This document shows positions 2,829 to 23,688 of a stretch of 64,000 nt of DNA, piece by piece (the stretch's first letter is position 1; every line of letters starts with the position of its first letter). The stretch is from Thomasclavelia spiroformis DSM 1552 (lineage in GTDB: Bacteria > Bacillota_I > Bacilli_A > Erysipelotrichales > Coprobacillaceae): NCBI RefSeq assembly GCF_025149465.1, contig NZ_CP102275.1, forward strand, positions 1,674,001 to 1,738,000, given 5' to 3'. A program made the translations under genes and the position numbers. The notes below the pieces were generated by a model that saw only the letters and a program-made list of their open reading frames with translations, was not told the DNA's origin and made no database searches.

Positions 2829-2872
2829 TCTTTATTTTATTTTTATGTAATCGTTTTCTATAATAACGCAAT

Positions 2873-3515: not shown

Positions 3516-3535
3516 AATATCACTTCCTTTAATAT

Positions 3536-3564: not shown

Positions 3565-3643
3565 TACGATCAATATATTACCCTTCGATAACATATACTT
3601 ATTTAATCATGTTTTTACTTGTAGTTTTATATATTAAAGCAAT

Positions 3644-3670
3644 AAAGATGAGTTAAACCAACTCATCTTT
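3644..3670 (-). terminator. Terminator overlapping the 3' end of VapD-like copy 2
   Basis: Same 27-base hairpin as in copy 1, again including the stop codon. Confidence 0.75.
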
Positions 3671-5910: not shown

Positions 5911-5911
5911 G

Positions 5912-7096: not shown

Positions 7097-7120
7097 TAGT
7101 TATACCTCCCTTTATATAAT

Positions 7121-7147
7121 AAAAATGAGTTAATTTAACTCATTTTT
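7121..7147 (-). terminator. Terminator of VapD module copy 3
   Basis: Perfect 13-bp inverted repeat around a single central base, A-rich and T-rich arms, just past the stop codon at 7149. It lies inside the capsule operon, between capF and capG, so read-through or antitermination would be needed to reach capG. Confidence 0.75.
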
Positions 7148-7148
7148 A

Positions 7149-7457
7149 TTATGTTTCATCTTTAATTATTGGCAAAAGATTATATTCATCACCAACAATA
7201 GTTACATCAAATATCATTACTGACATTTTTAACCATGGATACTGTCTTGATAGCTTGCCAACAAGATTAAAAACATCAGTCATCAAGATATCATCTTTAG
7301 ATACATAGCCTGAATACTGACGATGAATAAAATTTTCATCTTCAAAATATTTTTTAATATCTCGCCAAGCATTCTTATAATTTTTTGAAGGATAATTCTG
7401 TTTCAATAAATTATTATCTAAGTCAAAATTAATAGCTTTTCGCGTTTTTGTAATCAT
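7149..7457 (-). CDS. VapD-like (Cas2-fold) putative endoribonuclease, copy 3
   Basis: 102 residues. Same architecture as copies 1 and 2: TRKAINFDLDNNLL at the N-terminus, FIHRQYSGYVSKD in the middle, then a hydrophobic strand MSVMIFDVTIVGDEY. More diverged than copies 1 and 2 are from each other, so this is likely the older copy. It overlaps its partner gene by 29 bases and sits between capF and capG, with its own promoter and terminator. Confidence 0.65.
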   Translation of the reverse strand: MITKTRKAINFDLDNNLLKQNYPSKNYKNAWRDIKKYFEDENFIHRQYSGYVSKDDILMTDVFNLVGKLSRQYPWLKMSVMIFDVTIVGDEYNLLPIIKDET

Positions 7458-7764
7458 TGTTCTTCGTGAAAATTCTATAATAAGATTCTAATGCATCTTC
7501 TCGACATTCAATCGTATCACCAACATATCTAAAATACCAGCTATCTACTATTTTTAAAAACCATGGTGTTTTAGGTAATTCCCACTGTGCTTTAACCATT
7601 GCAAAAAGAGCGTCTTTAGTTCCTTTGTACACACCTTTTTCAACTTTCTTTACACCACGTTTTTCAAAAAATTGATCCACTTCTAAATAACATTCATCTA
7701 TATTGATATTATATTTTCTTGCCTTTTGTTCATCTAAAAACATTTCCATCATCATAACTATCAC
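7429..7764 (-). CDS. Small partner protein of VapD-like copy 3
   Basis: 111 residues as an open frame; the start is one of several Met codons (MIVMMMEMFLDEQ), most likely the ATG triplets that follow AAGGATGTGATAGTT. Shares the TPWFLKIVDSWYFRY block and MEMFLDEQKA start with copies 1 and 2. Function unknown; possible antitoxin by gene order. Confidence 0.55.
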   Translation of the reverse strand: MIVMMMEMFLDEQKARKYNINIDECYLEVDQFFEKRGVKKVEKGVYKGTKDALFAMVKAQWELPKTPWFLKIVDSWYFRYVGDTIECREDALESYYRIFTKNNDYKNAKSY

Positions 7765-7776
7765 ATCCTTAAATAT

Positions 7777-7805
7777 ATAATACTAAAGTTTTTTTCTTAT
7801 TACAA
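7777..7805 (-). promoter_or_regulatory. Promoter of VapD module copy 3
   Basis: Minus strand TTGTAA (7805-7800), 17-base spacer, TATTAT (7782-7777). Spacing and -10 are conserved with copies 1 and 2 although the spacer sequence differs. Confidence 0.65.
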
Positions 7806-7863
7806 TGACACGACTGTAATATTATCCTTCAGTAACTATATACGAAAAAAAGATGTCGTTACG

Positions 7864-9063
7864 TTATACTTTTTCAAAAAATGTATCAGGATGTTCTGGA
7901 TCAAATGATTCATTTGCCCACATTACTGTTACTAGATCTTCACTATCTGATAAATTAATGATGTTATGTGTATATCCTGGTAACATATGAATTGCTTCAA
8001 TCTTATCACCTGATACCTCAAACTCAATTACCTCATCACTATCGATCTTTCTTTCCTGAATCAGTCCATGTCCCGATACAACAATAAAGAACTCCCACTT
8101 GCTGTGATGCCAGTGCTGTCCTTTTGTGATTCCTGGTTTACTAATATTGACTGAAAACTGTCCACAGTTTTTTGTTTTAAGTAATTCAGTAAAACTTCCT
8201 CTTTCATCGATATTCATTTTCAAAGGAAATATTGTTTTTTCCTCTGGTAAATATGATAAATATGTACTGTACAGTTTCTTTGCAAAGCTGTTATTTGGGA
8301 TCTCCGGCATAACTAAGGTATTTGGCTGTGCTTTGAAGCTGTCTAACAGTTCAACAATATGTCCTAATGTTGCTTTATGAGTTGTCGGTACATAACAGTA
8401 TTTTCCATCTTTATCTTCAATTGCATCAACACCATCAAATATACAATGATGTTCTTTACCTTCTAAAATATCAAGCATTTCATTAACTAGATCATCAATA
8501 TATAATAATTCAAGTTCAACACTTGCATCATTTACCTGAATCTCTAAATCATGAGCATAATTGTAACAGAATGTTGCTACTGCACTGTTATAATTTGGTC
8601 TACACCACTTACCAAACAGATTAGGAAAACGATATACATATGCCTTACTTCCTACTTCATTTACATAATCAAAAAACAGATTTTCACCTGCAAGCTTACT
8701 TTTTCCATAATCACTGTCTGCATATCTGCCAATTAAGGTCGCTTGTATAGAACTTGATAACATCACGCCACATTTATTATCATATTTCCTTAATGTATTT
8801 AATAGCTTACTAGCAAAACCAAAGTTACCTTCCATAAATTCACTTTGCTCTTTAGGTCGATTAACTCCAGCTAAATTAAAGACAAAATCACAGTCTTTAC
8901 AGTATGTATCTAACAGTGATTCATCACTGTCGATATCATATTCATAGATATCTTCGATATTTAATGATGGTCTAGTTCTATCTTTACCATCTTTGATATT
9001 TTTTAATGTACTAACTAAGTTTTTTCCAACAAAACCTTTAGCTCCGGTTACTAAGATTTTCAT
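7864..9063 (-). CDS. capF: Bifunctional UDP-sugar reductase with C-terminal cupin (CapF/WbjC-like)
   Basis: 399 residues. N-terminal SDR domain with GAKGFVGKN (about 7-15) for NAD(P)H binding, and a YGKSKLAGE active-site block (about 120). The C-terminal part (from about residue 290) is a cupin with SKPGITKGQHWHHSKWEFFIVVSGHG, quoted here in pieces: the QHWHH metal-binding histidines and the WEF strand. This two-domain layout is characteristic of CapF, which epimerises and reduces the 4-keto sugar made by CapE on the way to UDP-L-FucNAc. Sits downstream of tagD in the capsule operon; a fragment of its 3' end is repeated at 4850-5038. Confidence 0.9.
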   Translation of the reverse strand: MKILVTGAKGFVGKNLVSTLKNIKDGKDRTRPSLNIEDIYEYDIDSDESLLDTYCKDCDFVFNLAGVNRPKEQSEFMEGNFGFASKLLNTLRKYDNKCGVMLSSSIQATLIGRYADSDYGKSKLAGENLFFDYVNEVGSKAYVYRFPNLFGKWCRPNYNSAVATFCYNYAHDLEIQVNDASVELELLYIDDLVNEMLDILEGKEHHCIFDGVDAIEDKDGKYCYVPTTHKATLGHIVELLDSFKAQPNTLVMPEIPNNSFAKKLYSTYLSYLPEEKTIFPLKMNIDERGSFTELLKTKNCGQFSVNISKPGITKGQHWHHSKWEFFIVVSGHGLIQERKIDSDEVIEFEVSGDKIEAIHMLPGYTHNIINLSDSEDLVTVMWANESFDPEHPDTFFEKV

Positions 9064-9081
9064 TTTATTTATTCTCCCAAC

Positions 9082-9471
9082 TTAACATTTATGTAAATCG
9101 TCTTTAATTTTAGTTGTAGAAATACCTTCAGTACGTGGTAAATACACAACTTCACAATATTCTTTTAAATAATCAAACTTACCTTCCCAATCATCGCCCA
9201 TAACAAAAACATCAATATCATGCTCTTTTATATCATTTATTTTTTGATCCCATGATTCTTCAAAAATCACTTCATCAACATATCTAATTGCTTCAAGAAT
9301 CAATTTATGATCTTGATCACAATGATATGCTTTTTTCCCCTTTTGAGCATTAAATTCATCTGAGCTAACAGCAACCACTAAATAATCTCCTAAAGCTTTA
9401 GCTCTTTTAATAATATTCAAATGTCCTACATGAAATAAATCAAATGTTCCATATGTAATAACCTTTTTCAT
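9082..9471 (-). CDS. tagD: Glycerol-3-phosphate cytidylyltransferase
   Basis: 129 residues, the usual TagD length. HVGH at 14-17 and RTEGIST at 113-119 are the two nucleotidyltransferase signature motifs. The enzyme makes CDP-glycerol from CTP and sn-glycerol-3-phosphate in the cytoplasm. In a capsule operon next to a LicD-family transferase it suggests that the polysaccharide carries glycerol phosphate. The CDP-glycerol transferase gene at 62.9 kb may use the same donor. Confidence 0.92.
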   Translation of the reverse strand: MKKVITYGTFDLFHVGHLNIIKRAKALGDYLVVAVSSDEFNAQKGKKAYHCDQDHKLILEAIRYVDEVIFEESWDQKINDIKEHDIDVFVMGDDWEGKFDYLKEYCEVVYLPRTEGISTTKIKDDLHKC

Positions 9472-9504
9472 TAACTATTCTCCACTATGAAAATTTATTT
9501 ACCT

Positions 9505-10350
9505 TTATTTATCATTAACCTTAATCTTATATGGTTTATGTCCAATTTGTTTATCTTCTTCTGGTAATTTCATATAATCACCATAATGAGTTTTTAGATA
9601 TTGATTATAATTATTTGGAATCGGAAAAAAATCCATTACAAATTTATGATTTCTTAAAGGATACAAATCCTCTTTTTTTATATATTCAGTTTTAAAAATA
9701 GGAAAATTCAAACAACAGTAAGAACTATTATTACTGTCATTATACTGTGTTGCTACTTTATATAATTTCCTTTTGAAAAAATCAGCAGGTATAATCTTTA
9801 AAATAAAATGAAGTATTTTTCTTATAAAATACTTTATTATTCCTAATAAACTACTAGGTTTTGATGCTAAATCTGGAATTTGTCTTAATGAATATAATCT
9901 AATTAAATGTTGAAATTCATCAAACATCTTTTTATATTCAACATCATCATCAGGAACAATATCAAATGGAAAAACATCTATGTATATCCCATGATGCATA
10001 TTAATTTTACGATTACAATACTCCATAAAAATAGTATCATTGATTCTAATTTTAGAATAAAAATATGGTATATTTTTATCATTATTTGGTGTTTGTAATT
10101 GATATTTATCTTTTAAGAAAAGTGGGGCTAATTTCAAAAATTTTTCATAATTAGCCCTTGTCATCCCTATATCTATATCATCATCCCATGGTATAAAACC
10201 TTTATGTCGTATTGCTCCCAAAGTTGTTCCACCTATTAAAAAATATTCTATGTTGTGAGCTTCACATACCTTTTTTACTTCTACCAATAATTCGTATTCT
10301 ACTCTTTGTATTTGTTTTAACTCTTCACTAGAATAAATTTGATTATTCAT
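9505..10350 (-). CDS. LicD-family phosphotransferase
   Basis: 281 residues. The LicD/fukutin signature is clear: GGTTLGAIRHKGFIPWDDDID at about 40-60, with the acidic WDDDID triad (55-60) that binds metal. LicD proteins transfer phosphocholine or other phospho-alcohol groups from CDP-linked donors to surface sugars. With tagD directly downstream, glycerol phosphate is the likeliest group, but no experiment supports that here. Its ATG overlaps the stop of the upstream glycosyltransferase by 4 bases (ATGA). Confidence 0.85.
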   Translation of the reverse strand: MNNQIYSSEELKQIQRVEYELLVEVKKVCEAHNIEYFLIGGTTLGAIRHKGFIPWDDDIDIGMTRANYEKFLKLAPLFLKDKYQLQTPNNDKNIPYFYSKIRINDTIFMEYCNRKINMHHGIYIDVFPFDIVPDDDVEYKKMFDEFQHLIRLYSLRQIPDLASKPSSLLGIIKYFIRKILHFILKIIPADFFKRKLYKVATQYNDSNNSSYCCLNFPIFKTEYIKKEDLYPLRNHKFVMDFFPIPNNYNQYLKTHYGDYMKLPEEDKQIGHKPYKIKVNDK

Positions 10351-11630
10351 AATACTTCCACCTTTTTATTTTTTTCATTTAACCAATCCATTATAATAGT
10401 ACTCATTTTAATATTATATAAATCCCATGAATATTCTTTAACAGAATTGATTGCATTCATCCTCATATTTGGAATTAAATCTTTATTTTCCAAAAACCAT
10501 AATACCTTTTCTTTAATTTGTTTTTGACTTTGAATATCTATTACAAAACCATTTTTGCCATCAATAATAGCATCATTTGCTCCACTATTTTTACTAACAA
10601 TACACGGTAACCCACATGATAGTGCTTCTAAAACAGATAAACTTAACCCTTCTCCTAGAGAAGGAAATACAAAAATATCCGAATTATCTAAAAACTCTTT
10701 AACTTTAGCATGATTAACTCTTCCTATAAAATTTATATGTTGAAAATATCTATCAAACAATCCATCACTATTGTCATAATGACCAACAACTGTTAATTCT
10801 ACTTTTTCTTTAGGAATTTCTAAAAAAGCTTCTAATAAATAATATATGCCTTTCATCTCTGTCACATTACCGACATATATTGCTTTTAAAGGAATATGAA
10901 AAGAATTATTTTTTTTACTTGTAGTAATATTAAAATTTGTCCCATAAGGACAGATTTTAATATTATCCTCTTTCACACCACTAAATAATAAAGATTCTTT
11001 TACAAAGTTTGAAGGAACTAAAAATTTATGTGCTAATTTAATTTCTTTATTTAACCTATCACAACTATTTTCATTCCATAAAAAAAATCTTTCTTCTTTT
11101 AATTTTTTTGCAAATTCACCTGATAATTTAAAATCTTTTTCATATATATCTTTCATATATAACCTATTGGCCGCACTAACATCCATTATTCTTAATATGG
11201 ATGGAGCTTTTTTTTCTAAAATTTCAAAACATTTATAAGCATTAGTATCATAATTAATAACCGCATCAACATTGTATTTGATAGCAAATCTTGCCACTTT
11301 TCTACCAAATGCGTCTGAGGTCAGTTGTTGCCATTTTGTATATATCTTTCTAGATTTATCAAACCTTGCTAAAAATATTTCTACTAATCCTCTAAATTTA
11401 TATAATTCTACTACATCAGAATCAGCTAAATCATTATTTCTTCTATTTTCAATTCTAGCCTTTTCATTTAAACTAAGTATTTTTTTCAAAAAATTTAATA
11501 GCATTGAATCATTTTTATAGTAAATAGTTGTCATATACTTATATAATATTCCACTTTTTTTTAGTGATGATGCAAGCCTAAATGAATGTTGCTTCCCAGG
11601 ATGTGCCACAATTACTTTATATTTTTCCAT
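10347..11630 (-). CDS. Glycosyltransferase family 4 (capsule)
   Basis: About 427 residues, taking the ATG at 11630, which follows GGAGG at good spacing; an in-frame ATG at 11642 lies before that site. C-terminal GT-B half shows the retaining GT4 pattern: a hinge segment (PLKAIYVGNVTEMKG), then FVFPSLGEGLSLSVLEALSCGLP, where the EGLSLSVLE block supplies the E-x7-E motif that contacts the nucleotide-sugar. No membrane segment. It presumably adds one sugar of the capsule repeat unit; donor unknown. Confidence 0.85.
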   Translation of the reverse strand: MEKYKVIVAHPGKQHSFRLASSLKKSGILYKYMTTIYYKNDSMLLNFLKKILSLNEKARIENRRNNDLADSDVVELYKFRGLVEIFLARFDKSRKIYTKWQQLTSDAFGRKVARFAIKYNVDAVINYDTNAYKCFEILEKKAPSILRIMDVSAANRLYMKDIYEKDFKLSGEFAKKLKEERFFLWNENSCDRLNKEIKLAHKFLVPSNFVKESLLFSGVKEDNIKICPYGTNFNITTSKKNNSFHIPLKAIYVGNVTEMKGIYYLLEAFLEIPKEKVELTVVGHYDNSDGLFDRYFQHINFIGRVNHAKVKEFLDNSDIFVFPSLGEGLSLSVLEALSCGLPCIVSKNSGANDAIIDGKNGFVIDIQSQKQIKEKVLWFLENKDLIPNMRMNAINSVKEYSWDLYNIKMSTIIMDWLNEKNKKVEVL

Positions 11631-11686
11631 AAAATCCTCCATAATATATCAATATAACTAATTTAGAGATCATAGTTATATTTTTT

Positions 11687-12451
11687 CTATTTGCTATTAT
11701 TAATTAAATAAATGTTATTGAATATTAATTGAGCTATTTTTTTATATCCATTTTCATTAGGATGAAAATAATCTTCGTAGTAAAAATCATCATTTAAATA
11801 AAATTTTGAATATTTATACATGTCAATAAATTTTACATTATCAAAATTTATAGATAAATTTTTAATAATAGAATTATACTTCAAATACTTAAAATTTGTC
11901 CCTGGAAAATATTTATCATCTACATATACAGTGGAAATAGTAATAACATTTGTATCCACTTCCTTAAAATATTCTAAATATTTCTTATATATATTCTCAA
12001 ATGTATCAATATCACATAAAACTGTTGTTCCTTGTAAATTCAAAAGCAATTTATTTAAAAAACACCGAAAATTTGAATCAAGTTTTTGGATGAATCTTTT
12101 ATATTTATTTGAAGAAAAATATGGCCTAGGATTTAACATTCCATTTTGTTTATATCTTTTAGGTAAATATTTAAAATAATTTGGTTTATGCAATTGATTT
12201 GGCCTTAACATTCCGTCTACATTACCATAAAAAATAATTACATAATCATAGTATTTTGATTTCCACTCAGACTCTAATGTTTCCATATATTTTATAGTAG
12301 TCCCCGTGTATGCATAATTATATATTTTACATTTCAAGCCTTTGTCTTCGATTTTTTCTTTTAAAAAATTACTATAATTAATTTTTCTACTACCAATTCC
12401 CTCACTTATACTATCACCAAAAATGGCAATTTTGATTATTTCTTCTTCCAA
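11687..12451 (-). CDS. SGNH/GDSL-family hydrolase or acyltransferase
   Basis: 254 residues starting at a TTG that follows AAGGAAAATATT and lies inside the end of wzx. Block I is IAIFGDSISEGIG with the nucleophile Ser in GDS (about residue 13), and block V is DYFHPNENGY near 226, giving the Asp-x-x-His pair. The block III Asn is seen in YGNVDG. No signal peptide, so a cytoplasmic enzyme acting on acetyl or other ester groups of sugar precursors is most likely. It overlaps wzx by 16 bases. Confidence 0.75.
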   Translation of the reverse strand: MEEEIIKIAIFGDSISEGIGSRKINYSNFLKEKIEDKGLKCKIYNYAYTGTTIKYMETLESEWKSKYYDYVIIFYGNVDGMLRPNQLHKPNYFKYLPKRYKQNGMLNPRPYFSSNKYKRFIQKLDSNFRCFLNKLLLNLQGTTVLCDIDTFENIYKKYLEYFKEVDTNVITISTVYVDDKYFPGTNFKYLKYNSIIKNLSINFDNVKFIDMYKYSKFYLNDDFYYEDYFHPNENGYKKIAQLIFNNIYLINNSK

Positions 12452-13872
12452 AATATTTTCCTTCCTTCATCTAATATATAGAGTAACATTTCATCTTTAG
12501 TCAAATAGCTAATCAACATATATATCACGATTCCCAATATAACTTGAAAAAATGTTGTAAATATTGTTGCATTCATCCCATAGGTTACTATCACAATAAG
12601 AATACCCATAATCAACGAATTAAACAAATTTATCATTCCATTTTTTAAACAAATACTTAATCTAATTTGTTTATTTATATAATAAAATTGAAAGCAAACT
12701 GCAAATAATAAGCAAATTATTGTTGCAATAGCAGCACCAATACATCCATATTTTGGTATTAATAAAAAATTTAATAAAATATTAATTGTAGCTGCTCCAT
12801 AATATGCAACTGTTAAAATTTTCGTTTTATTTGTAGCTGTTAAATATTGTGTTCCAAATATATTGTTCAAGGCATTTAAAATAATCATTGGTGATAAAAA
12901 ACACAAAGTATTTATTACAAAAGTATATTCAGATCCCAAATACCAAGGAATAAATTGTTTAGAAATAACAAAAATTCCTATCATCATTGGCATAGATAAA
13001 AATAATGCAAACTTTAGTGTCTTTGTAACATAAATAGATATTGATTCAACTTCATGATTTGAATATAAATTAGATAATCTCGGCATCATTACTGTACCTA
13101 ATGCAGTGATCAGTGCTAGAGGTATATTTATTATTTTATCAGCATAATCATAATATGCCACTTGAGAAGCAGAAGAAGTTATTTGTAGTAGCATTACTTT
13201 ATCGAATTGCAAATATAATAATGTAGCAATTTGTGGTATAAATAATTTTATTGATGGTATTAAATGAAAAAATATATCTCTTATATAGTAAAATGAAAAC
13301 GAAACGTATTTTTTCAGTCTGTTATAAATAGATATTGTTGTAATTAAAGTTGTTAAAGAAAATGTCATAAAATATATCCATAAGTCTTCATTTTCTTTAA
13401 CAAATAAAAATATTCCAATAACTGTAATAATTTTAGCTACAAAATTTCTTAATGTTACAATTCCCAAATCTTCAAACCCAATAAACACCCAAGAAATATC
13501 AATAAATTGTGCTACTATTAATAAATATTGAATTAAATAATATATCATATCTTCTGAAGAAGATATGATAAGAAAATAAAAAATAGATATGATAATCAAC
13601 AATACAATTCTTAATATATAAATTTCAGAAAAAGTTTTAGATACTTTATGCTTATCATTTCTATCATATGCTATTTGTCTATAGCCATAACTATTTAATC
13701 CTAGTAATCCTACAGTTGTTATAATACTAATAACAGAATTTATATAACCATATTTTCCTAAATATTCAGGACTCATTACTCTTGTCAAATAAGGCGCAGT
13801 AATCAAAGGAATTATTATCAAAAAAAACTGATATATTATATTATATATATAATTTTTTATTATCTTATTCAT
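12436..13872 (-). CDS. wzx: Wzx-type lipid-linked oligosaccharide flippase
   Basis: About 478 residues from the ATG at 13872 (a TTG start at 13881 is also possible). Hydrophobic throughout, with about 12-14 membrane helices; the N-terminal QFFLIIIPLITAPYLTRV is typical of the polysaccharide_synt/MOP superfamily. It would move undecaprenyl-linked repeat units across the membrane before polymerisation by the Wzy protein encoded just upstream. Start codon overlaps the wzy stop by 8 bases. Confidence 0.88.
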   Translation of the reverse strand: MNKIIKNYIYNIIYQFFLIIIPLITAPYLTRVMSPEYLGKYGYINSVISIITTVGLLGLNSYGYRQIAYDRNDKHKVSKTFSEIYILRIVLLIIISIFYFLIISSSEDMIYYLIQYLLIVAQFIDISWVFIGFEDLGIVTLRNFVAKIITVIGIFLFVKENEDLWIYFMTFSLTTLITTISIYNRLKKYVSFSFYYIRDIFFHLIPSIKLFIPQIATLLYLQFDKVMLLQITSSASQVAYYDYADKIINIPLALITALGTVMMPRLSNLYSNHEVESISIYVTKTLKFALFLSMPMMIGIFVISKQFIPWYLGSEYTFVINTLCFLSPMIILNALNNIFGTQYLTATNKTKILTVAYYGAATINILLNFLLIPKYGCIGAAIATIICLLFAVCFQFYYINKQIRLSICLKNGMINLFNSLIMGILIVIVTYGMNATIFTTFFQVILGIVIYMLISYLTKDEMLLYILDEGRKIFWKKK

Positions 13873-15274
13873 TTCTTTCAATCACCTTTTTCTTAAAAAA
13901 TCGTTTTATAAACCAATATGGTAACATACAAAAAACAATCATCCAAAAATTACTTGGAGTATAACCTCTAATTACTAATTGTAGTATTATCCCTAAAATT
14001 GTAGAATATATCATTAAATCAATTACTGATTCACTTTTTATTCGATATTTAATATAAACTTTCTTTAGCCACCAACCTAAAATACTAGACCACATTATTA
14101 CTCCAAATAATCCACTATCATAATAATATTCTCCTAAACCCGGATATGCACTTCCTCCGTCGACTGCGTACTGATTAATTCCCAACCTTTGTGCTTCAGT
14201 CCCAGGGTTACTTGGTTTACCTTTCCAAAGCATTCTTGGGATAAACATTATCATTGTATAAATAATCATTTGTGCACCAAATAAATAATTTGTTAAATTA
14301 GGAACTGCTTTAATTAAACCATAGTAAGTTTTATATATACGAAAATTATCCCACAGTGCTTCATCAAAAGCTTTTTTTATTACATCAAGTGAGATTATAG
14401 ATAAATCCATCCCACTTCCGCTTCTAATAGTATTTCTAAACAAAGTCATTAATAATGTCGGAATTAAAATACAAATCGCTATTGATATCAAATCACGAAT
14501 TTTTAATTTTTTCCCACTTTTTAAAATATAGTATGAAAAAAACATAATAATAATTTGTATAATAAAAAACCTAAATCCCCTTGCTACTTGTAAAACAAAC
14601 ATTGCACTAAAAAAAACAAATTTTAAAAATTTATTATTCCCATACTCCATATATAATAATGTTATTGAGGGTAAAGCATATGAGAACATTGAAATAGCTC
14701 CTAAATTTGCATCCGAAACAGAAAATCCTCCACTTCCTAATATACCTAAAGTAAATATATATAAAATACTATTACTTCTTGTAAGATAATAAACATTTGC
14801 AATAAAACAAACTACATACATTGATACAATAAACACAACTATTTTTTTTCCATAATACTCATATTTTATATTTATTTTATTTTGTTTAGATGATGGAACG
14901 TTTAAATTATTAAATATCATAAATGATAAATAACCAACAAACGCTATAGTAGATCCTTTAATTCCAAATTTAAACAAATCCACACCAAACCATAAGTATT
15001 CTTCGCATAAAATATCATACATCGGAGTTACAAAAAACATAGTAAGATATAAAAGCGAAAAAATAATGGTCGGTGAAAAAAAATCATATTTATTTTTCAA
15101 GATACTAAATCCAAGAATAAAATATGATATTAATAAATATGTGAAATCAATCAAATAATTATTTAAATATATTTCATTTTGATTATTTGGAATCAAAAGA
15201 ATACCTAAAATAAATATTATAATTAAAGATAAACAAAATATCAAAAGATGATTTTTTTTTATTTTAAAATACAT
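13865..15274 (-). CDS. wzy: Wzy-type polysaccharide polymerase (O-antigen polymerase family)
   Basis: 469 residues with about 11 hydrophobic helices and a large loop (about residues 300-390) containing PRMLWKGKPSNPG, as in oligosaccharide repeat-unit polymerases. No strong sequence motif exists for this family; assignment rests on topology, length and its position between wzx and glycosyltransferases. Preceded by AGAGGTGAG. It would link repeat units at the outer membrane face. Confidence 0.8.
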   Translation of the reverse strand: MYFKIKKNHLLIFCLSLIIIFILGILLIPNNQNEIYLNNYLIDFTYLLISYFILGFSILKNKYDFFSPTIIFSLLYLTMFFVTPMYDILCEEYLWFGVDLFKFGIKGSTIAFVGYLSFMIFNNLNVPSSKQNKINIKYEYYGKKIVVFIVSMYVVCFIANVYYLTRSNSILYIFTLGILGSGGFSVSDANLGAISMFSYALPSITLLYMEYGNNKFLKFVFFSAMFVLQVARGFRFFIIQIIIMFFSYYILKSGKKLKIRDLISIAICILIPTLLMTLFRNTIRSGSGMDLSIISLDVIKKAFDEALWDNFRIYKTYYGLIKAVPNLTNYLFGAQMIIYTMIMFIPRMLWKGKPSNPGTEAQRLGINQYAVDGGSAYPGLGEYYYDSGLFGVIMWSSILGWWLKKVYIKYRIKSESVIDLMIYSTILGIILQLVIRGYTPSNFWMIVFCMLPYWFIKRFFKKKVIERNE

Positions 15275-15289
15275 TAAAATTTCTCACCT

Positions 15290-16438
15290 CTAATCTTTCT
15301 TCATTTCTTCATAAATTCTCTTTATCACGTCCTCTGTCATATAGTTATTTTTGGCTAATTGATAAGATGTATTTTTAGCGTTTTTATATTGTATATCTGT
15401 CCAATTAATAATATTTTTAAAAATATTTTCAATACTTTCAGTATTTGAATAACTAAAAACAAATCCATTAACTAATTGTTGAATTACTTCCTTATGATTA
15501 CCAACATGTTCTGATACAATTAAAGGCAAACCTGCCCATAGCGCTTCAATACAAGTCAAAGGATTTGCATCCGACCTTGAGGGCATTAAAAAGAAATCAG
15601 AAATAGAATATAACTTAGCAACAACAGATTGTTCTAAATAACCTAGAATTTTAATATCTATATCATATTGTTTAGCTTTTTCCATGATAATTTCTTTCAA
15701 TTCTCCTTCTCCTGGAATTATAATAGAAATTCTTTTCTTATATTTAGACATACTAATTAAATCCAAAAATTTATCTATCCCCTTTACATAAGTTAATCTT
15801 GCAGGACAAATAAAAAGAATTTTATCATCTTTTATATCAAATTCTTCTTTTATTTTTTGTTTATCATTTTGATTATATAGATGATAATCGAATATATGAT
15901 AATCAACTAAATTAGGAACATAAATTTTTTTAAAATTATCTTTAGCATATTTTTTTATAAAATCTAAAGAAAATTCTCCCGCATACCAAAAGCCATCAAA
16001 CTTTTTATATATTTTATTTTTAATACAACAACTAATATTTTTCTTTAAAAATCCATTGTTTTTATCTTCATTCAAATGAGACTCACTCCAAAAATATATT
16101 ATGTAATTGAATTTTTCTTTAAGTTTTGATAATTTATATACTCCTGGACACAAATAACTTCCTGCACAAACAACATGTGTTGGTCTCAAACCTTCTATCG
16201 TATTTTTTAAATTTTTATTAATATGAATATAAATACCTTTTACAGAAATAGTTTTTCCCTCTAATAATATAGTATAATCTCCTTTAAGATCATCATAATT
16301 CCAATTTCTATCTGGTTCTGTTTTTGACATTACTAAAACCTTAAAGAAAATATTTCGTTCTTTACAAAATTCATTTAATACATCAAAAAAATATTTTCTA
16401 TAAGGTGTTAATATATTAGTATATATAACTAATCTCAT
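15290..16438 (-). CDS. Glycosyltransferase family 4 (capsule)
   Basis: About 382 residues from the ATG at 16438, which has GAGGAGG 7 bases upstream; the longer open frame to 16471 lacks a ribosome site. GT-B fold: N-terminal RLVIYTNILTPYRKYFFDVL, hinge ILFICPARLTYVKGIDKFLDL, then MPSRSDANPLTCIEALWAGLP with the E-x7-E-like nucleotide-sugar site. No membrane helix. Sugar donor and linkage unknown. Confidence 0.85.
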   Translation of the reverse strand: MRLVIYTNILTPYRKYFFDVLNEFCKERNIFFKVLVMSKTEPDRNWNYDDLKGDYTILLEGKTISVKGIYIHINKNLKNTIEGLRPTHVVCAGSYLCPGVYKLSKLKEKFNYIIYFWSESHLNEDKNNGFLKKNISCCIKNKIYKKFDGFWYAGEFSLDFIKKYAKDNFKKIYVPNLVDYHIFDYHLYNQNDKQKIKEEFDIKDDKILFICPARLTYVKGIDKFLDLISMSKYKKRISIIIPGEGELKEIIMEKAKQYDIDIKILGYLEQSVVAKLYSISDFFLMPSRSDANPLTCIEALWAGLPLIVSEHVGNHKEVIQQLVNGFVFSYSNTESIENIFKNIINWTDIQYKNAKNTSYQLAKNNYMTEDVIKRIYEEMKKD

Positions 16439-16604
16439 AAAGTACCTCCTCACAAATATAAACAATATCAAATTATTTAGATACTATTAAACATTTTTTT
16501 AAATAGGTATAATTAATTTTTCTCATAAAATATTTTTATAAGTGTAAAATAGATATGCATTCAAACTAGGTATATCTTATAAAAATTTATCATTACTACA
16601 AACA

Positions 16605-17756
16605 TCAGCAATAAAGCTTAAAATAATTTTTATTCATATCATCAAGATCACCTATCATATATTCCAAATTTCTAAAATCTACATTTTTTATTCTATCAAC
16701 ATAAGTACTACTAAAAGCAATATTTGTTTTAAGACAACTCTCGGGACTTCCTCCTGTTTCAAATGTAACTACAGGTGTTCCACAACTAATAGCTTCTAAA
16801 TTTGTTGTGGGGTAATTATCTTCAAGTGTAGGGTTAAAATAAACATACGCAGCACTATACCATTTAACTAATTCTTGAACACTCTCTGTACGTGATATAC
16901 CAATAATATTTGATGGTAATTGTTTGATTTGTTTCGAATTTAAACCAATCAAAACAATTTGATAATCATCATCTAATTGTTTTGATAATTCAATAAAGAT
17001 ATCTAAACCTTTTCTTTTATCCCATACGGAAGCTACACCCAATATTATTTTTTTATTTTCTACTCCATATTGTTGTCTAATATCTGATGAAGTTGGTTTA
17101 AAAACACTTGTATCTACACCATTATGTATTACTACTGTTTCATAATTTTTTAAACATGATTTTTTCACTTCATTTTTTAGCCATTTACTTGGTGTTACTA
17201 AAATCATATTTTCTACATTACTAAATATATTTTTTTTATTTGTATAATTCCTTGTTACACATGAAAAAATCGTTTTAGGATATTCATTTCTATTAAGACA
17301 ATATCCTTTACAACATGTTTTCCATTTATCACATTTGGCATAAGTGTAATAAGCACAATGACCAGTAAATGCCCAACAATCATGTAGTGTCCATATCTTC
17401 TTTATTTCTGGATGTGCTTTTAAATATTTAAACAATATTTCAATATTTACATAATATCCATGGATATTATGTAAATGGATAATATCTGGTTTAAATTCAT
17501 CTATTTTTTTTATAAATTCTTTTGTTGCATGCTTACTACCAAATCCACTTGCATCAAATAATCTAGCTTTTAGTACATGTAAATAGATGTCTAATTTATT
17601 TCCTATTTTAATTGTTTTAAATCCTTTTGGTGCTTCTCCTCTCCCATATGCTATACAGCATTCATGTCCAGCTTCAACAGCCGCTTTATAAAGGTTTTTG
17701 CAAATTGTTCCAGTTGATCCATTACAGACCGAATTAATAAATAATATTCGAGACAT
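16605..17756 (-). CDS. Glycosyltransferase family 4 (WcaL-like, capsule)
   Basis: 383 residues. N-terminal half carries IHLHNIHGYYVN and WTLHDCWAFTGHCAYY followed by a Cys-rich patch (CDKWKTCCKGYC), a hallmark of one GT4 branch found in exopolysaccharide loci. C-terminal half has GVASVWDKRKGLDIFI and NPTLEDNYPTTNLEAISCGTPV. The start ATG overlaps the capE stop by one base (TAATG). The 130-base gap after the gene (16472-16604) holds no gene and may contain a secondary promoter. Confidence 0.85.
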   Translation of the reverse strand: MSRILFINSVCNGSTGTICKNLYKAAVEAGHECCIAYGRGEAPKGFKTIKIGNKLDIYLHVLKARLFDASGFGSKHATKEFIKKIDEFKPDIIHLHNIHGYYVNIEILFKYLKAHPEIKKIWTLHDCWAFTGHCAYYTYAKCDKWKTCCKGYCLNRNEYPKTIFSCVTRNYTNKKNIFSNVENMILVTPSKWLKNEVKKSCLKNYETVVIHNGVDTSVFKPTSSDIRQQYGVENKKIILGVASVWDKRKGLDIFIELSKQLDDDYQIVLIGLNSKQIKQLPSNIIGISRTESVQELVKWYSAAYVYFNPTLEDNYPTTNLEAISCGTPVVTFETGGSPESCLKTNIAFSSTYVDRIKNVDFRNLEYMIGDLDDMNKNYFKLYC

Positions 17757-18799
17757 TATCTATTCTCCCATTCACTCAATTCATCTCTTACTAACTTGAC
17801 TTCCATTAATTTTTCTTTTACTTCTTCTAAAGTCATTAATTTAGTATTATGTGAATTAAATTGTTGTAAATTAGTTCTTGCTATCCCTTCAAAGAAATAC
17901 TTGTCATAATTTAAATCTCTTTTATCCGCTGGTACTCGATAGAAGTTTCCTAAGTCAATTGCATTGGCACATTCTTCATCAGTAAGTAATGTTTCATACA
18001 TCTTTTCACCATGTCTAATACCAATTACTTTTATTTCATTATCAACATTAAATAATCCTTTAACGGCTTTAGCTAGTACTTCAATCGTACAAGCAGGTGC
18101 TTTTTGAACAAAGATATCTCCACTTTCACCATTTTCAAAAGCAAATAATACTAAATCTACTGCTTCTTCTAATGTCATAACAAATCTTGTCATCGTTGGA
18201 TCGGTTACAGTTAGATCATTTCCTTCTTTTATCTGGTTAATAAAAAGAGGTACTACACTACCTCTTGATGCTAATACATTTCCATATCTTGTACACATGA
18301 TTGCTGTTTTATCTGGATCTACTGTTCTAGACTTAGCAACGATTACTTTTTCCATCATCGCTTTACTTGTTCCCATTGCATTTACAGGATAAGCTGCTTT
18401 ATCGGTACTTAAACATACTACCCTTTTAACACCACATTCAATTGCTGCTGTTAAAACATTTTCTGTTCCCAAAACGTTTGTTTTAACAGCTTCAATTGGA
18501 AAGAACTCACAGGATGGTACCTGTTTTAAAGCGGCTGCATGATAAACATAATCAACACCATGCATAGCATTTTTGATACTGTTTATATCACGGACATCAC
18601 CGATATAAAACTTAAGTTTATGAAAAACATCAGGATATTTAGCCTGATATTCATGTCTCATATTATCCTGTTTTAATTCGTCTCTAGAAAACACTCTGAT
18701 TTCTTTGATATCAGTTTCTAGAAATCTGTTTAATACTGCATTACCAAAGGAACCAGTTCCTCCGGTAATCAGTAATGTTTTATTTTTGAATTGCGTCAT
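17756..18799 (-). CDS. capE: UDP-GlcNAc 4,6-dehydratase, inverting (CapE/WbjB-like)
   Basis: 347 residues. SDR/Rossmann start LLITGGTGSFGNAVL (about 9-23), GDVRDINS, and the dehydratase active-site region YVYHAAALKQVPSCEFFP, with CLSTDKAAYPVNAMGTSKAMMEK giving the modified Tyr/Met-Lys catalytic block of the FlaA1/CapE family. It catalyses the first step from UDP-GlcNAc to UDP-L-FucNAc. Partners capF (7864-9063) and capG (5912-7096) lie about 9 and 11 kb further along the same operon, an unusual separation. ATGA overlap with the upstream gene. Confidence 0.9.
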   Translation of the reverse strand: MTQFKNKTLLITGGTGSFGNAVLNRFLETDIKEIRVFSRDELKQDNMRHEYQAKYPDVFHKLKFYIGDVRDINSIKNAMHGVDYVYHAAALKQVPSCEFFPIEAVKTNVLGTENVLTAAIECGVKRVVCLSTDKAAYPVNAMGTSKAMMEKVIVAKSRTVDPDKTAIMCTRYGNVLASRGSVVPLFINQIKEGNDLTVTDPTMTRFVMTLEEAVDLVLFAFENGESGDIFVQKAPACTIEVLAKAVKGLFNVDNEIKVIGIRHGEKMYETLLTDEECANAIDLGNFYRVPADKRDLNYDKYFFEGIARTNLQQFNSHNTKLMTLEEVKEKLMEVKLVRDELSEWENR

Positions 18800-19980
18800 A
18801 CTAGTTCCTCCATTTTATTAGATATTTGATTTACATACTTTTCTATTGTGAAATTTTCCAAAAAATATTTACGACTATTAACTGCATACTCCACTAATTT
18901 CTTTTCATTATTTAATAATTCAATTATTATTTTTGATAAGGCAGTATAATCTCCAGCACTACAAACTTTTCCTGCTCTAGCATTTTTTATAATATCAGCA
19001 GTTGCACCATCAATACTCCCAATTATCCCTCTTCCAGCCGACATATATGTCTGCAATTTAGAAGGAATCGTTTTGCCAACAGTACTCCCTTTTTCAAGCG
19101 ATAATAAAAAAACAGAAGCATCATTGTAATATTCTTTTAATTCCTCTACTTTTTTTCTACCTGTAAAAACAAATACTTCTTCAAATTGATTTTCTTTAAC
19201 TTTATTTTTCAATTCTTCTAAATATGAACCACTGCCAATAATTGTAATTTTTATCTTACTTCTATGTTCATCAGATAAGAGACTAATTGCCTTTACTAAG
19301 CAATCAAAATCTTGTACTTTACCAATATTTCCAGCAAAAACAATATTTAACTTACTTTGTTTAACATATGGCTTAACATTTAAAAACATTTTTTCACCAT
19401 GTTGATAAATAACATCTAACTTATCCTTATTCACACCATTTATTTCTTCTAAATACTCTAAAAATGCAGGTGAAGTAACACTAATGAAATCACATTTTCT
19501 ATAAAGATTATTAGAAATTTTTAACATAATGCGATAGATTGGATTATTTTCATGTAATTTTAATGCTTTTAAAGACTCAGGCCATAAATCTAGACAGTAT
19601 ACATAAACTTTTTTTCCAAACAACTTTTTATAATATAATGCTGGTTTAATCATTAAAACAGGCGATAATTGATAAACAAATACAATATCGTATCTTTTGT
19701 CTAATTTTTTTATTTCTTTTTTTGCAAATTTTGGATAACTTAAATAATTCAAAATTAATGAAACAGGATTATGTCCACGAAGTACTATATTAGCTCGAAT
19801 TATTTGTACACCATTTAAGTTTTGTGACATTGGATAACCATCAATTAAATCACCATCAGGATAATTAGGTCTCCCAGTTATTACAGTTACTTCATTACCT
19901 CTTTTTACCAATTCTTCACAAATTTCATGAATCTTAAATGGTTCAGGATAATAATATTGTGAAATAACTAGTATTTTCAT
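18796..19980 (-). CDS. Glycosyltransferase family 4, WbuB-like
   Basis: 394 residues. Begins ILVISQYYYPEPFKIHEICEELVKRG, then TGRPNYPDGDL, as in WbuB-type transferases that often add L-FucNAc; YCLDLWPESLKAL follows. C-terminal half: FAGNIGKVQDFDCLVKA and SLEKGSTVGKTIPSKLQTYMSAGRG. Presence of the UDP-L-FucNAc pathway in the same operon fits a FucNAc transferase role, which remains inference. Start overlaps the upstream sugar transferase stop by one base. Confidence 0.85.
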   Translation of the reverse strand: MKILVISQYYYPEPFKIHEICEELVKRGNEVTVITGRPNYPDGDLIDGYPMSQNLNGVQIIRANIVLRGHNPVSLILNYLSYPKFAKKEIKKLDKRYDIVFVYQLSPVLMIKPALYYKKLFGKKVYVYCLDLWPESLKALKLHENNPIYRIMLKISNNLYRKCDFISVTSPAFLEYLEEINGVNKDKLDVIYQHGEKMFLNVKPYVKQSKLNIVFAGNIGKVQDFDCLVKAISLLSDEHRSKIKITIIGSGSYLEELKNKVKENQFEEVFVFTGRKKVEELKEYYNDASVFLLSLEKGSTVGKTIPSKLQTYMSAGRGIIGSIDGATADIIKNARAGKVCSAGDYTALSKIIIELLNNEKKLVEYAVNSRKYFLENFTIEKYVNQISNKMEELV

Positions 19981-20594
19981 TATTTCTTATCTCCATTCAT
20001 TGAACCTGTTCCACCTTCAACTACACCATCTGATTTAAGAACTGATGTAATTGTTCCAAAAAAGCATTTTACATCAAATAAAAAAGAGATACATTTAACA
20101 TATTCTCCATCTAATCTGGCTTTTACATCTATTTCTAATTCATCACGACCATTTATCTGTGCCCATCCGGTAAGACCTGGTCTTACATCATTGGCATGAT
20201 ATTTATCTCTTTCGGCAATCAAATCATCCTGATTCCATAAAGCAGGTCTTGGCCCAATAATCGCCATTTCACCTTTAATAATATTAATGATCTGTGGCAA
20301 TTCATCAAGCGATGTCTTTCTTAAAAACTTTCCAGCTCTGGTAATAAATTGATCAGGATCTTTTAACATATGTGTTGGCATATCTTTTGGCGTATCAATA
20401 TACATTGTTCTAAACTTATAGATATTAAAATATGTTTTATTAATCCCAACTCTTTTTTGTTTAAACAAAATTGGACCTTTGCTGTCCAATTTTACCCAAA
20501 TACATAAAATAATAAAAACAGGACTTAAAACAATAAGTCCACACAACGCTAAAACAAAATCAATTAATCTTTTAACAAATCCTCTATACATCAA
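19980..20594 (-). CDS. Initiating sugar-phosphate transferase (bacterial sugar transferase)
   Basis: 204 residues. One N-terminal hydrophobic segment (FVLALCGLIVLSPVFIILCIWV, residues about 13-34) followed by the catalytic domain with KRVG, YKFRTMY, LRKTSLDELPQ, GPRPAL and RPGLTGWAQINGR, all conserved in PF02397 phosphoglycosyl transferases. This short (PglC/WcaJ C-domain) form loads the first sugar phosphate onto undecaprenyl phosphate at the inner membrane face. ATGA overlap with the pglD-like gene upstream. Confidence 0.93.
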   Translation of the reverse strand: MMYRGFVKRLIDFVLALCGLIVLSPVFIILCIWVKLDSKGPILFKQKRVGINKTYFNIYKFRTMYIDTPKDMPTHMLKDPDQFITRAGKFLRKTSLDELPQIINIIKGEMAIIGPRPALWNQDDLIAERDKYHANDVRPGLTGWAQINGRDELEIDVKARLDGEYVKCISFLFDVKCFFGTITSVLKSDGVVEGGTGSMNGDKK

Positions 20595-21226
20595 ACACCC
20601 ACCTCAAAACTATATTCGCTAGATGATTTTATAACCAAACCATCTTCAATATCACTACTAGCTTTTATTTTAGTATTGAAAGTAACTGTACAGTTACTAC
20701 CAATTCTTGACATTGAACCAATTAATGTATTAGGTCTAATTACACTGTTTGAATAAATTAAGCAATAATCTTCAATTACTGCATCATGATTAATTGTAGC
20801 ATTAGATGTAACAATACAACCTTTACCAATAACTGCATTAGCTTCGACTACTACATTATCAAAAATAATTGTTCCTTCATTAATTGAGGCATAATTAGAT
20901 ACAATACTGTGTGCTGAAATAATTGTTTCAACACAGTATCCAATTTCTTTAGCCTGACTAATAAGCTTTTTTCTAAGCTCATTATTACCAATAGCAATAA
21001 AGATATGTTGATAAGCTGGATAGTAACTAGCCATCTTATCGACAGTATCAATGACTTTACAGTCATTGATTATGTTATTTACATTGCCATCATCAAGAAA
21101 AACAATCTCCTGATAACAATTTAAATTTCTAATAATATCCAGGCAACATCTACCATGTCCGCCTGCTCCCACAATCAATAACTTTTTAATAAAATTCCCC
21201 CTCCTTATATCATCAAATACAGACAT
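20591..21226 (-). CDS. PglD/NeuD-family sugar O-/N-acyltransferase
   Basis: 211 residues from the ATG at 21226. A Rossmann-like N-terminal part (KKLLIVGAGGHGRCCLDII) is followed by a left-handed beta helix of hexapeptide repeats (residues about 95-200), the NeuD/PglD layout of acetyl-CoA sugar acyltransferases. It is the first structural gene after the leader hairpin. Start is doubtful: AAGGAGGGGG lies inside the frame 9 bases before an ATT codon just ahead of KKLLIVGAGG, the usual family N-terminus, so an AUU start at about 21190 is possible. Confidence 0.82.
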   Translation of the reverse strand: MSVFDDIRRGNFIKKLLIVGAGGHGRCCLDIIRNLNCYQEIVFLDDGNVNNIINDCKVIDTVDKMASYYPAYQHIFIAIGNNELRKKLISQAKEIGYCVETIISAHSIVSNYASINEGTIIFDNVVVEANAVIGKGCIVTSNATINHDAVIEDYCLIYSNSVIRPNTLIGSMSRIGSNCTVTFNTKIKASSDIEDGLVIKSSSEYSFEVGV

Positions 21227-21245: not shown

Positions 21246-21292
21246 AGTTTCTATGTGCTTTTGGGTACAGTTTCCCCTACCCCATAGAAACT
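21246..21292 (-). promoter_or_regulatory. Leader hairpin before the capsule genes (candidate LoaP target)
   Basis: On minus-strand RNA a perfect 10-bp stem (21292-21283 with 21255-21246) is stacked directly on a 5-bp GGGUA/UACCC stem capped by a 10-base loop, with a 7-base one-sided bulge. A T-rich stretch follows. It lies between the antiterminator genes and the first capsule gene, the place where LoaP-controlled operons carry their recognition hairpin. It might also act as a terminator that antitermination overrides. Confidence 0.55.
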
Positions 21293-21340
21293 AATAATAT
21301 GTTCCAAAAATCATTGAAGGCGGATTACCAAGCGCTTCAA

Positions 21341-21838
21341 CTATTTCTTGCCTAAAATGTCTATACCTAATTTAATTCTTCGGTCAAAAAAGATTAGGTC
21401 TAAAAAAGCACAACAATTATGTTTATCAACTTTTACAATATGATTTTCATAAGCTACTAATGGTCCACTTATTACCCTAGTAATGCCATTTTCCTGATAA
21501 CCATGTGATAATCTAACAACATGTTTACTATCTAAAACTAAATTAAAGAATTCAATTTCTTTTTTTGTTAATGCTGAAGTATCAGCATTTTTAAGTTGTC
21601 TGATTAATCCATTATTATCTTCTTTCATATTGAATAATAAAGTATTAAATTCTTCTTGATTCAACATTGTTTTTATAAAAATATAATTATTAAACATAGG
21701 TTTAATTGTTATTTCTTTAGTATAACGATGACATACTTCATAACTTGGAATAAATGCTTCTAATTCTTTCTTTTTATTCAAGTTTCCAAGAATACGTTGA
21801 GTCCGATGACTCAACGTATATAATACATACCAATTCAT
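21341..21838 (-). CDS. loaP: NusG-paralogue antiterminator, LoaP-like (second of a tandem pair)
   Basis: 165 residues. N-terminal NGN domain opens with NWYVLYTLSHRTQRI (the WY-V-T-x-x-R pattern of NusG/RfaH/LoaP) and has FIPSYEVCHRYTKEI and FNNYIFIKT; C-terminal KOW-type segment is VISGPLVAYENHIVKVDKHN. Too short and too diverged to be the housekeeping NusG. LoaP proteins ride on RNA polymerase and suppress termination over long biosynthetic operons. Start touches the stop of its paralogue upstream. A small hairpin (about 21315-21340) follows the stop. Confidence 0.82.
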   Translation of the reverse strand: MNWYVLYTLSHRTQRILGNLNKKKELEAFIPSYEVCHRYTKEITIKPMFNNYIFIKTMLNQEEFNTLLFNMKEDNNGLIRQLKNADTSALTKKEIEFFNLVLDSKHVVRLSHGYQENGITRVISGPLVAYENHIVKVDKHNCCAFLDLIFFDRRIKLGIDILGKK

Positions 21839-22335
21839 TAATCTACCATCTCAATTGCAACATTAAATTTACCATTAAAGATCTTACAATCTAATGTTAC
21901 AAAACGATCATGTCGATTCAATTTAATAATTCTATCTTCTAATCCAATTAATGGTCCTTTAATTGCATTAAAACGTGAATTGATTATATTACCTAATGTA
22001 TGCTTAATAACATAACCACCATCGAATAATCTTTCTAAAAAACTTTGTTCATCAAGTGTTAAAGGATATACATCTTTATAATCAAGTAATTCGATTAACC
22101 CTTCAATTGTTCTAAAGAAAACTTTGAACTTTTCATCGAATTTATCTTTATTAAGTTTACTTTTAATAAAAACATAATCGGGATATAGCTCTTTAATAAC
22201 ATATGTTCTTTTATCTCTAGCTCTATACCACTGCTCTTTTTTGGGAACAAATGCTTCAATATCCTCTTGTTTATTAAGCGAGCCAACTAACTTGCTAGCT
22301 TGACCAGCTTTTACATGAGCAATATACCAATACAT
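21838..22335 (-). CDS. NusG-paralogue antiterminator, LoaP-like (first of a tandem pair)
   Basis: 165 residues, paralogous to the next gene: YWYIAHVKAGQASKLVGSL at the N-terminus, AFVPKKEQWYR, YPDYVFIKS, and the KOW-like NAIKGPLIGLEDRIIKLNRHD near the C-terminus. Ribosome site GAGGGAT. It lies 29 bases from the 18-bp inverted repeat and is the first gene that an inverted promoter would transcribe. Having two NusG-like genes in tandem is unusual and may mean a heteromeric or antagonistic pair. Confidence 0.8.
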   Translation of the reverse strand: MYWYIAHVKAGQASKLVGSLNKQEDIEAFVPKKEQWYRARDKRTYVIKELYPDYVFIKSKLNKDKFDEKFKVFFRTIEGLIELLDYKDVYPLTLDEQSFLERLFDGGYVIKHTLGNIINSRFNAIKGPLIGLEDRIIKLNRHDRFVTLDCKIFNGKFNVAIEMVD

Positions 22336-22358
22336 TTTTATCCCTCATTTCTTCTTTT

Positions 22359-23312
22359 TCACAGAACATAGAGTTCTGCGACATAAGAAGGGGTTTTAAG
22401 TTTATTAATTTGAGATTTCTTAAATTCCAATGATGAATGAACATAAAGTTCTAATGTAATTGAAACATTAGAATGACCAAGCATTTCTGATAATGATTTA
22501 ATATCGATATCATTCATAACGCAATTGGTAGCATAAGTATGTCTTAAAGTATGATAATTGCATTTGAATTCTAATGTGTTACATATTTTATGAAAATGAT
22601 ATTGAATGTTACGAGGGTCTGGTATTTTTATTGAATTAGTATAGATATAGTTTTGTTTTTTAGGATTAGATTGTTTTTTGTAATATTTTATTAAAAAGTC
22701 AATAATGAATTCAGGCATTGGAACAATTCGTTTAGAAGTATGAGTTTTTGGGTCCAATGCCATTAATGTTGTTTTAGAATTAGAATTAGTTGTTTTTAAT
22801 CTTTCAATCGTACGATTAATACTAATACAGTGATTTTCAAAATCAACATCACACCATTTTAAACCAGCGACTTCACCTAAACGAAAGCCTCCATATAATG
22901 ACAAAATAATTACAAGTGTATAGTTTTTTTGATGATTAAAACAATATTGTTCTAATTGTTTTTTTTGTTTTAAGGTTAAAATCTTAATTACTGGTTTTGA
23001 TTTTTTTAGTTTAATGTATTGAAAGCTATTATTATTAAAATTATATTTTTTTTGAGCGTAATCTAATATTGCTTTTAAAACATAACGTAATGTTTTAATT
23101 GTACTAGTTGCATAAATTTTATTATTTAATAAATCATTGAAATAGGAAATAACTATTTTTTCACTGATTTCATTAATATTCATGTTGTTAAATTGTTTAT
23201 TTAAATGGTTTGTAATAATTGTTTCATATTTTGTATATGTAGAATATTTAATTGAAAATTTTTTAATTATTAACCATTCTTTTGCTACCTCATTAAATTT
23301 TTTTTGTTGCAT
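22359..23312 (-). CDS. Tyrosine site-specific recombinase (promoter invertase)
   Basis: 317 residues. N-terminal SAM-like core-binding domain (about 1-100). Catalytic domain (about 110-300) with Arg144 (GGFRLGEV), His254-x-x-Arg257 (HTLRH), His280 (LGHSNV) and Tyr290 (LELYVH), so the active site is complete. It lies within an 18-bp inverted repeat: one copy (22364-22381) encodes its last residues (VAELYVL), the other lies upstream of its promoter (23456-23473). No other phage or plasmid gene is near, so a DNA-inversion role fits better than prophage integration. Start preceded by AAAGGAATATGAATT. Confidence 0.9.
   Translation of the reverse strand: MQQKKFNEVAKEWLIIKKFSIKYSTYTKYETIITNHLNKQFNNMNINEISEKIVISYFNDLLNNKIYATSTIKTLRYVLKAILDYAQKKYNFNNNSFQYIKLKKSKPVIKILTLKQKKQLEQYCFNHQKNYTLVIILSLYGGFRLGEVAGLKWCDVDFENHCISINRTIERLKTTNSNSKTTLMALDPKTHTSKRIVPMPEFIIDFLIKYYKKQSNPKKQNYIYTNSIKIPDPRNIQYHFHKICNTLEFKCNYHTLRHTYATNCVMNDIDIKSLSEMLGHSNVSITLELYVHSSLEFKKSQINKLKTPSYVAELYVL
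22364..22381. repeat. Inverted repeat left (IRL) of the invertible segment
   Basis: GAACATAGAGTTCTGCGA, the exact reverse complement of 23456-23473. The inner part GAAC-5-GTTC is itself a dyad, as expected for a tyrosine-recombinase crossover site. It overlaps the 3' end of the recombinase gene. Confidence 0.9.
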
Positions 23313-23409
23313 AATTCATATTCCTTTCTTTATTAAAAATTTATTTAATTTTCAATAAAAGTAGCGATTATTACAACAAAAAAATAAAAAGAACATCTTT
23401 GTTAATAAA

Positions 23410-23450
23410 CTGACAAATTTACTTGAAAATATAAATATATATGATAAAAT
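23410..23450 (+). promoter_or_regulatory. Outward-facing promoter inside the invertible segment
   Basis: Plus strand: TTGAAA (23423-23428), 16-base spacer, TAAAAT (23445-23450); an alternative is TTTACT with TATGAT (23440-23445). The -10 lies just before the right inverted repeat. In this orientation it points right into the terminator at 23480-23534. Inversion would place it next to 22364 pointing at the two antiterminator genes. Confidence 0.65.
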
Positions 23451-23455
23451 AATTT

Positions 23456-23473
23456 TCGCAGAACTCTATGTTC
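23456..23473. repeat. Inverted repeat right (IRR) of the invertible segment
   Basis: TCGCAGAACTCTATGTTC, exact reverse complement of 22364-22381, 18 of 18 bases. The invertible segment between the repeat outer ends is 1110 bp. Confidence 0.9.
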
Positions 23474-23479
23474 CACGAC

Positions 23480-23534
23480 AAAAAAGGCTGTAACAAATAA
23501 AAATTTTTTATCTTTAAATGTTACACCTTTTTTT
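23480..23534 (+). terminator. Terminator just outside the right inverted repeat
   Basis: Stem of about 14 bp (AAAAAAGGcTGTAACA with TGTTACACC plus T run), one bulged C, followed by seven T on the plus strand. It would stop transcription from the outward promoter in the present orientation, making this the OFF state for the antiterminators. The stretch 23535-23688 holds nothing I recognise. Confidence 0.8.
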
Positions 23535-23688
23535 GCTTAAGATGGTATATTTAGAAAAAATAAAGTTATCCAAATATAATTAACTAAAAACCTTATTCTA
23601 CCTTGGTTTTATATATTTTGATTAATCCCGTTTGCAATCAATTATAAACTTAGCTAATTTAAATACAAAAAAGGTAATTACATCCTAT

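Follow-up and report, generated by a model that had tools for sequence, protein, structure and literature searches.

A predicted promoter-inversion switch upstream of LoaP-like genes and a surface-polysaccharide operon in Thomasclavelia spiroformis and its relatives

Results

Organisation of the locus

The window analysed here, a 64,000-nucleotide stretch of the Thomasclavelia spiroformis DSM 1552 genome, contains a surface-polysaccharide operon on the reverse strand (5107-21226). The operon encodes a PglD-like protein, an initial sugar transferase, glycosyltransferases, dehydratase/epimerases, Wzy, Wzx, and GDSL and LicD proteins. Among the genes scanned we identified no module for export or anchoring, which makes 'surface polysaccharide' a safer term than the 'capsule' of the initial annotation, although the polysaccharide operon it described is present and is of the Wzx/Wzy type. 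Upstream of the operon, and on the same strand, are two genes for LoaP/NusG-like antiterminators, loaP1 (21838-22335) and loaP2 (21341-21838). Both proteins match the LoaP profile (NF033641) over their full length and better than any other family, but the score of 94 bits is below the curated cut-off of 125, and for this reason we refer to them as LoaP-like. Against the UpxY family (NF033644) they score 36 and 50 bits, under its cut-off of 100. Elsewhere in the window, a pair of small ORFs without a Pfam family is present twice in tandem (2869-4286), accompanied by near-identical hairpins at 2869-2903 and 3640-3674, and another pair of similar-sized small ORFs lies at 7149-7764.

The start of loaP1 is 29 bases from a 1110-bp segment (22364-23473, repeats included) that is bounded by an exact 18-bp inverted repeat, GAACATAGAGTTCTGCGA at 22364-22381 being the reverse complement of 23456-23473. 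Allowing up to three mismatches, the repeat has two copies in the 2.53-Mb genome, both of them here, and a reversed control gave none. Within the segment we observed a complete gene for a tyrosine recombinase of 317 amino acids (22359-23312, reverse strand; Pfam Phage_integrase, E 2.9e-21), in which the catalytic R, H-x-x-R, H and Y are all conserved. At the other end an outward promoter on the forward strand, TTGAAA-16-TAAAAT with the extended -10 element TGATAAAAT (23423-23450), ends 5 nt before the right repeat and is predicted to be active. Just beyond that repeat is an intrinsic terminator on the same strand (23479-23535; -14.7 kcal/mol, z -3.1), which the promoter faces in the orientation as drawn, here called promoter-away or, by its predicted effect, OFF.

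These features bear out most of what the initial annotation had read at this site, namely the exact inverted repeat, now backed by the genome-wide search, the outward promoter beside its right copy, the strong terminator outside it on the promoter's strand and the NusG/LoaP paralogue 29 bases outside the left copy, the first of two antiterminator genes. Its description of a 1110-bp segment holding a complete recombinase needs one correction, as the 3' end of the gene crosses the left repeat and its stop codon lies at 22359-22361. Because the repeat overlaps the last codons, the C-terminus of the recombinase would differ between orientations, and the sequence predicts a change from ...AELYVL (stop) to ...AELYVPRQKRL (stop) on flipping.

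Both repeats form part of near-palindromic recombinase sites, built from a half-site, a 7-nt spacer and a second half-site. The left site reads CACAGAA-CATAGAG-TTCTGCG (22360-22380, forward strand) and the right, inverted site CGCAGAA-CTCTATG-TTCCACG (23457-23477, forward strand). The window thus has inverted recombination sites flanking a promoter, an arrangement expected of a promoter-inversion phase switch, and the recombinase presumably acts on these sites.

A family of LoaP-linked switches

Across Thomasclavelia and the family to which it belongs we identified 24 LoaP-linked switches, each placed before LoaP-like genes that head a polysaccharide operon; the relatives within the genus include Thomasclavelia saccharogumia DSM 17460. 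For one locus (L156, locus 1 of G006) the automated repeat pick was a chance 13-mer, and a manual pair, read by eye, was used instead. A 25th locus (L019), whose degenerate repeats were left unpaired by the script, is outside this count. Most sites share the form CRYAGAA-N7-TTCTRYG, with half-sites somewhat variable between loci, and such sites were found in 20 of 43 family genomes. The spacer is the same within a locus, in inverted orientation, at 17 of the 17 loci whose sites both match a slightly looser form of this consensus, two of which (L183 and L182) stand beside large ORFs and not loaP. Between loci of one genome, spacers differ at two or more of the seven positions. Identity within a locus is a requirement of strand exchange in the spacer, and the differences between loci would discourage recombination from one locus to another.

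An outward extended -10 element abuts one arm in all 24 loci and agrees with the consensus at 7 or 8 of its 8 positions. The opposite arm has a lower -10 score in every locus (at most 6 in all but two). In 20 loci this promoter is directed away from loaP, and in the other four it faces loaP. Of the 19 loci tested, 18 have an intrinsic terminator in the distal flank. A recombinase is encoded inside 15 of the 24 segments. The other nine are short (about 140-360 bp) and have none, so that some switches must be flipped in trans. The same conclusion follows from an orthologous pair of loci in G028 and G012 (85% identical on the distal side and 74% on the loaP side), where the recombinase is present in G028 and missing in G012; a switch can therefore lack a recombinase of its own, in which case one must be supplied in trans. 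In G012 a single close recombinase and two more distant ones accompany six LoaP switches. Two switches of the window genome are intact, the one in the window (1.696 Mb) and L036 (1.486 Mb), and both are promoter-away; one more is apparently fixed ON.

A solitary close relative of the recombinase (L168, G006:C1:1918669-1919583), with no sites or loaP detected nearby, might be the enzyme that flips the short switch at 894636-895011 in trans. At 3188-7668 of L171 (G012:C5) a switch has grown to 4.4 kb by extra DNA that includes a second recombinase fragment, and matching spacers are still found at both ends. A search of viral contigs gave mostly distant integrases; one match, L192, has 100% identity with the G002 locus and is not independent of it.

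A two-hairpin RNA element follows loaP2

Directly 3' of loaP2 is a hairpin, HP1 (21314-21340, reverse strand), followed before the first polysaccharide gene by a second, HP2 (21247-21292, reverse strand), which carries the GGGGUAGGGG motif and a U-rich, terminator-like tail. The six-pair stem of HP1 covaries among relatives: in 14 distinct stems, 81 of 84 cells are paired, whereas the highest count in 10,000 shuffles was 72. HP2, with its motif GGGGUARGGG, is nearly invariant, which leaves its covariation counts weak; a terminator-like run of U is present in many loci and an additional terminator stands right behind HP2 in several. We found the motif 16 times, in 11 of the 60 relatives, and not at all in the reversed control. 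Each copy follows a LoaP-like gene that either heads a polysaccharide operon or stands at a contig end. A search of Rfam returned no credible match to the element. We consider it a likely antitermination target, on which the LoaP-like proteins may act.

Both orientations occur among relatives

The initial annotation had suggested looking for both orientations in related genomes, and beyond the 20 loci facing away and four facing toward loaP, two comparisons speak to inversion itself. Between loci of two species, L162 (G007) and L156 (G006), the flanks are collinear (79% identical on the loaP side) and the 1.4-kb segment, 74% identical, is reversed exactly from repeat to repeat. These loci carry a longer member of the recombinase family, with the same 7-nt-spacer geometry. 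On one scaffold of the T. saccharogumia assembly (G004), the promoter end of the segment is joined to the distal flank and also to loaP, the latter by 20 identical bases that lie ahead of an assembly gap. As one chromosome with a single copy of the locus cannot carry both junctions, the culture probably contained both orientations. In these relatives, then, both orientations occur in nature, as a phase switch would demand.

Discussion

A model for switching and its polarity

We consider it probable, at about 0.88 and judging from sequence comparison, that flipping of the 1.1-kb promoter segment controls loaP and the polysaccharide operon. Strand exchange in the 7-nt spacer that the inverted sites have in common, catalysed by the recombinase or in trans by one of its relatives, would flip the segment. 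In the orientation as drawn the promoter would fire into the terminator, leaving the polysaccharide operon OFF or at a leaky, low level. Once flipped, it would lie directly upstream of loaP1 and transcribe loaP1, loaP2 and the polysaccharide genes. The two-hairpin RNA element would be where the LoaP-like proteins join the transcribing polymerase, allowing it to pass the terminator-like hairpin and to continue along the whole of the long operon. That a flipped segment would aim its promoter at the antiterminators had been proposed in the initial annotation, and the layout of the 24 loci, the inverted ortholog, the assembly with both junctions and the recombinase-free switches all point the same way.

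The initial annotation had also warned that the recombinase's own promoter could read through into the antiterminators, and this caution stands. As drawn, the recombinase gene lies upstream of loaP1, co-directional and 23 bases apart, and with no terminator between them a recombinase transcript can reach loaP, making OFF possibly leaky. Taken further, such readthrough might mean that inversion tunes expression and does not switch it, a reading with which the predominance of the drawn orientation at recombinase-bearing loci would agree. We think this unlikely. We recognised no promoter in the window that is directed toward the recombinase, and the nine recombinase-free switches keep the same promoter layout, with the outward promoter as the one recognisable promoter, which fixes the polarity. 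The degenerate loci, too, are fixed with the promoter toward loaP. In G002 the recombinase is broken by stop codons and the promoter faces loaP, and at the third LoaP/polysaccharide locus of the window genome (L155, G000:C1:860500-880000, at 5300-6500) the promoter remains with a single remnant site, a decayed first loaP, an intact second loaP and the RNA element. These locked-ON remnants agree with the polarity proposed above. At L155 a group II intron is inserted between the RNA element and the operon.

A different concern is that the anatomy is real but the window strain has been frozen OFF by its right outer half-site, which reads CGTGGAA where the family has CRYAGAA. Frozen loci are known both in relatives and in the window genome, and the window's promoter, right half-site and HP2 are each somewhat off the family consensus. 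Nevertheless, the recombinase is intact and retains its catalytic residues, both sites have the same spacer, and an ortholog from another species shares the change in this half-site, which speaks against simple decay; we regard a frozen switch as distinctly improbable. The idea that an integrase cassette landed by the polysaccharide locus, with the repeats as its ends, we reject as highly implausible: the recombinase does resemble integrases, both in Pfam and in 'Int protein' entries of the PDB, and is present at only one of the two orthologous G028 and G012 loci, but inverted palindromic repeats are kept at recombinase-free loci, the placement of promoter and terminator is conserved, a plasmid search found no copy of the switch, and relatives differ by inversion at the repeats.

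Beyond the single promoter-inversion switch, we lean, with less assurance, towards a multi-locus system in Bacillota, in which up to six LoaP-headed operons per genome would each have their own inverton. A few recombinases, working partly in trans and recognising a common half-site, would serve them. Being private to each locus, the 7-nt spacers would prevent cross-recombination, and each switch would act together with a new antitermination RNA, the covarying two-hairpin element.

Relation to known systems

The Salmonella Hin/H segment is about 1 kb long and carries the recombinase gene together with an outward promoter, and the window segment resembles it in all three respects. Hin, however, is a serine recombinase with a flagellin target and no antiterminators, whereas the enzyme encoded within the window segment is a tyrosine recombinase. 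The likeness to the capsule loci of Bacteroides is of another kind: in both, an invertible promoter precedes a polysaccharide operon led by the gene for a NusG paralogue, a genome has several such loci and, as we infer for the Thomasclavelia family, some of them are switched in trans. The Bacteroides capsule invertase Mpi is a serine recombinase (PMC5903667), in contrast to the tyrosine recombinase often found inside the segment in Thomasclavelia, a member of the Bacillota. LoaP-like proteins take the place of UpxY here, in keeping with the low UpxY scores given above, and the conserved two-hairpin RNA element and locus-specific spacers are further differences from Bacteroides.

In Bacillus velezensis, LoaP acts on the dfn and mln operons, and the leader hairpin that it binds precedes a terminator (PMC12691694). 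The window shares with that system a NusG paralogue, a long operon and a small hairpin followed by a terminator-like one, but its hairpin loops are not of the UNCG type, its antiterminator genes form a tandem pair inside the operon, and control would be by DNA inversion. RecV of Clostridioides difficile is a tyrosine recombinase that inverts several surface-gene switches in a Gram-positive organism (PMC5903667). Its targets, unlike that of the window switch, are the flagellum and CwpV. We know of no LoaP or polysaccharide operon among the RecV switches. The nearest report that we found is a preprint on Eggerthella lenta, in which megabase inversions at short repeats reposition CPS clusters relative to loaP (PMC13174815). 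Short-repeat inversion, CPS clusters and loaP are common to both cases; E. lenta, however, belongs to the Actinomycetota, and its megabase inversions have no adjacent recombinase and do not form a simple promoter switch.

Each component of the present locus has precedent, and what is proposed here is Bacteroides-style capsule switching with a Hin-like anatomy and LoaP-like proteins in the Bacillota. The initial annotation had suspected that such a recombinase, LoaP and capsule combination in a Firmicute was undescribed. We found no description of the combination of LoaP, capsule and invertible promoter in Bacillota, of the cross-locus spacer rule or of the RNA element in the open-access literature, to which the search was confined, so that priority is uncertain.

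Such a switch can mean that genetically identical cells carry a surface-polysaccharide coat or lack it. If the model is correct, gut Bacillota would share with Bacteroides the strategy of combinatorial on/off surface polysaccharides, reached through a tyrosine recombinase and LoaP-like proteins, with a bearing on phage resistance and on the immune interaction of Thomasclavelia and its relatives. The system would also provide LoaP-like proteins with a set of natural targets that carry a defined RNA element, and the spacer-identity rule may explain how one recombinase could serve many loci without scrambling the chromosome.

The same type of switch also occurs in another setting. In L183 (G004:C21) a recombinase-bearing switch at 7186-8287 lies between two divergent giant ORFs of at least 2309 and 2856 amino acids, the first with Cna_B surface-protein repeats, an arrangement which suggests that this switch may choose between adhesins.
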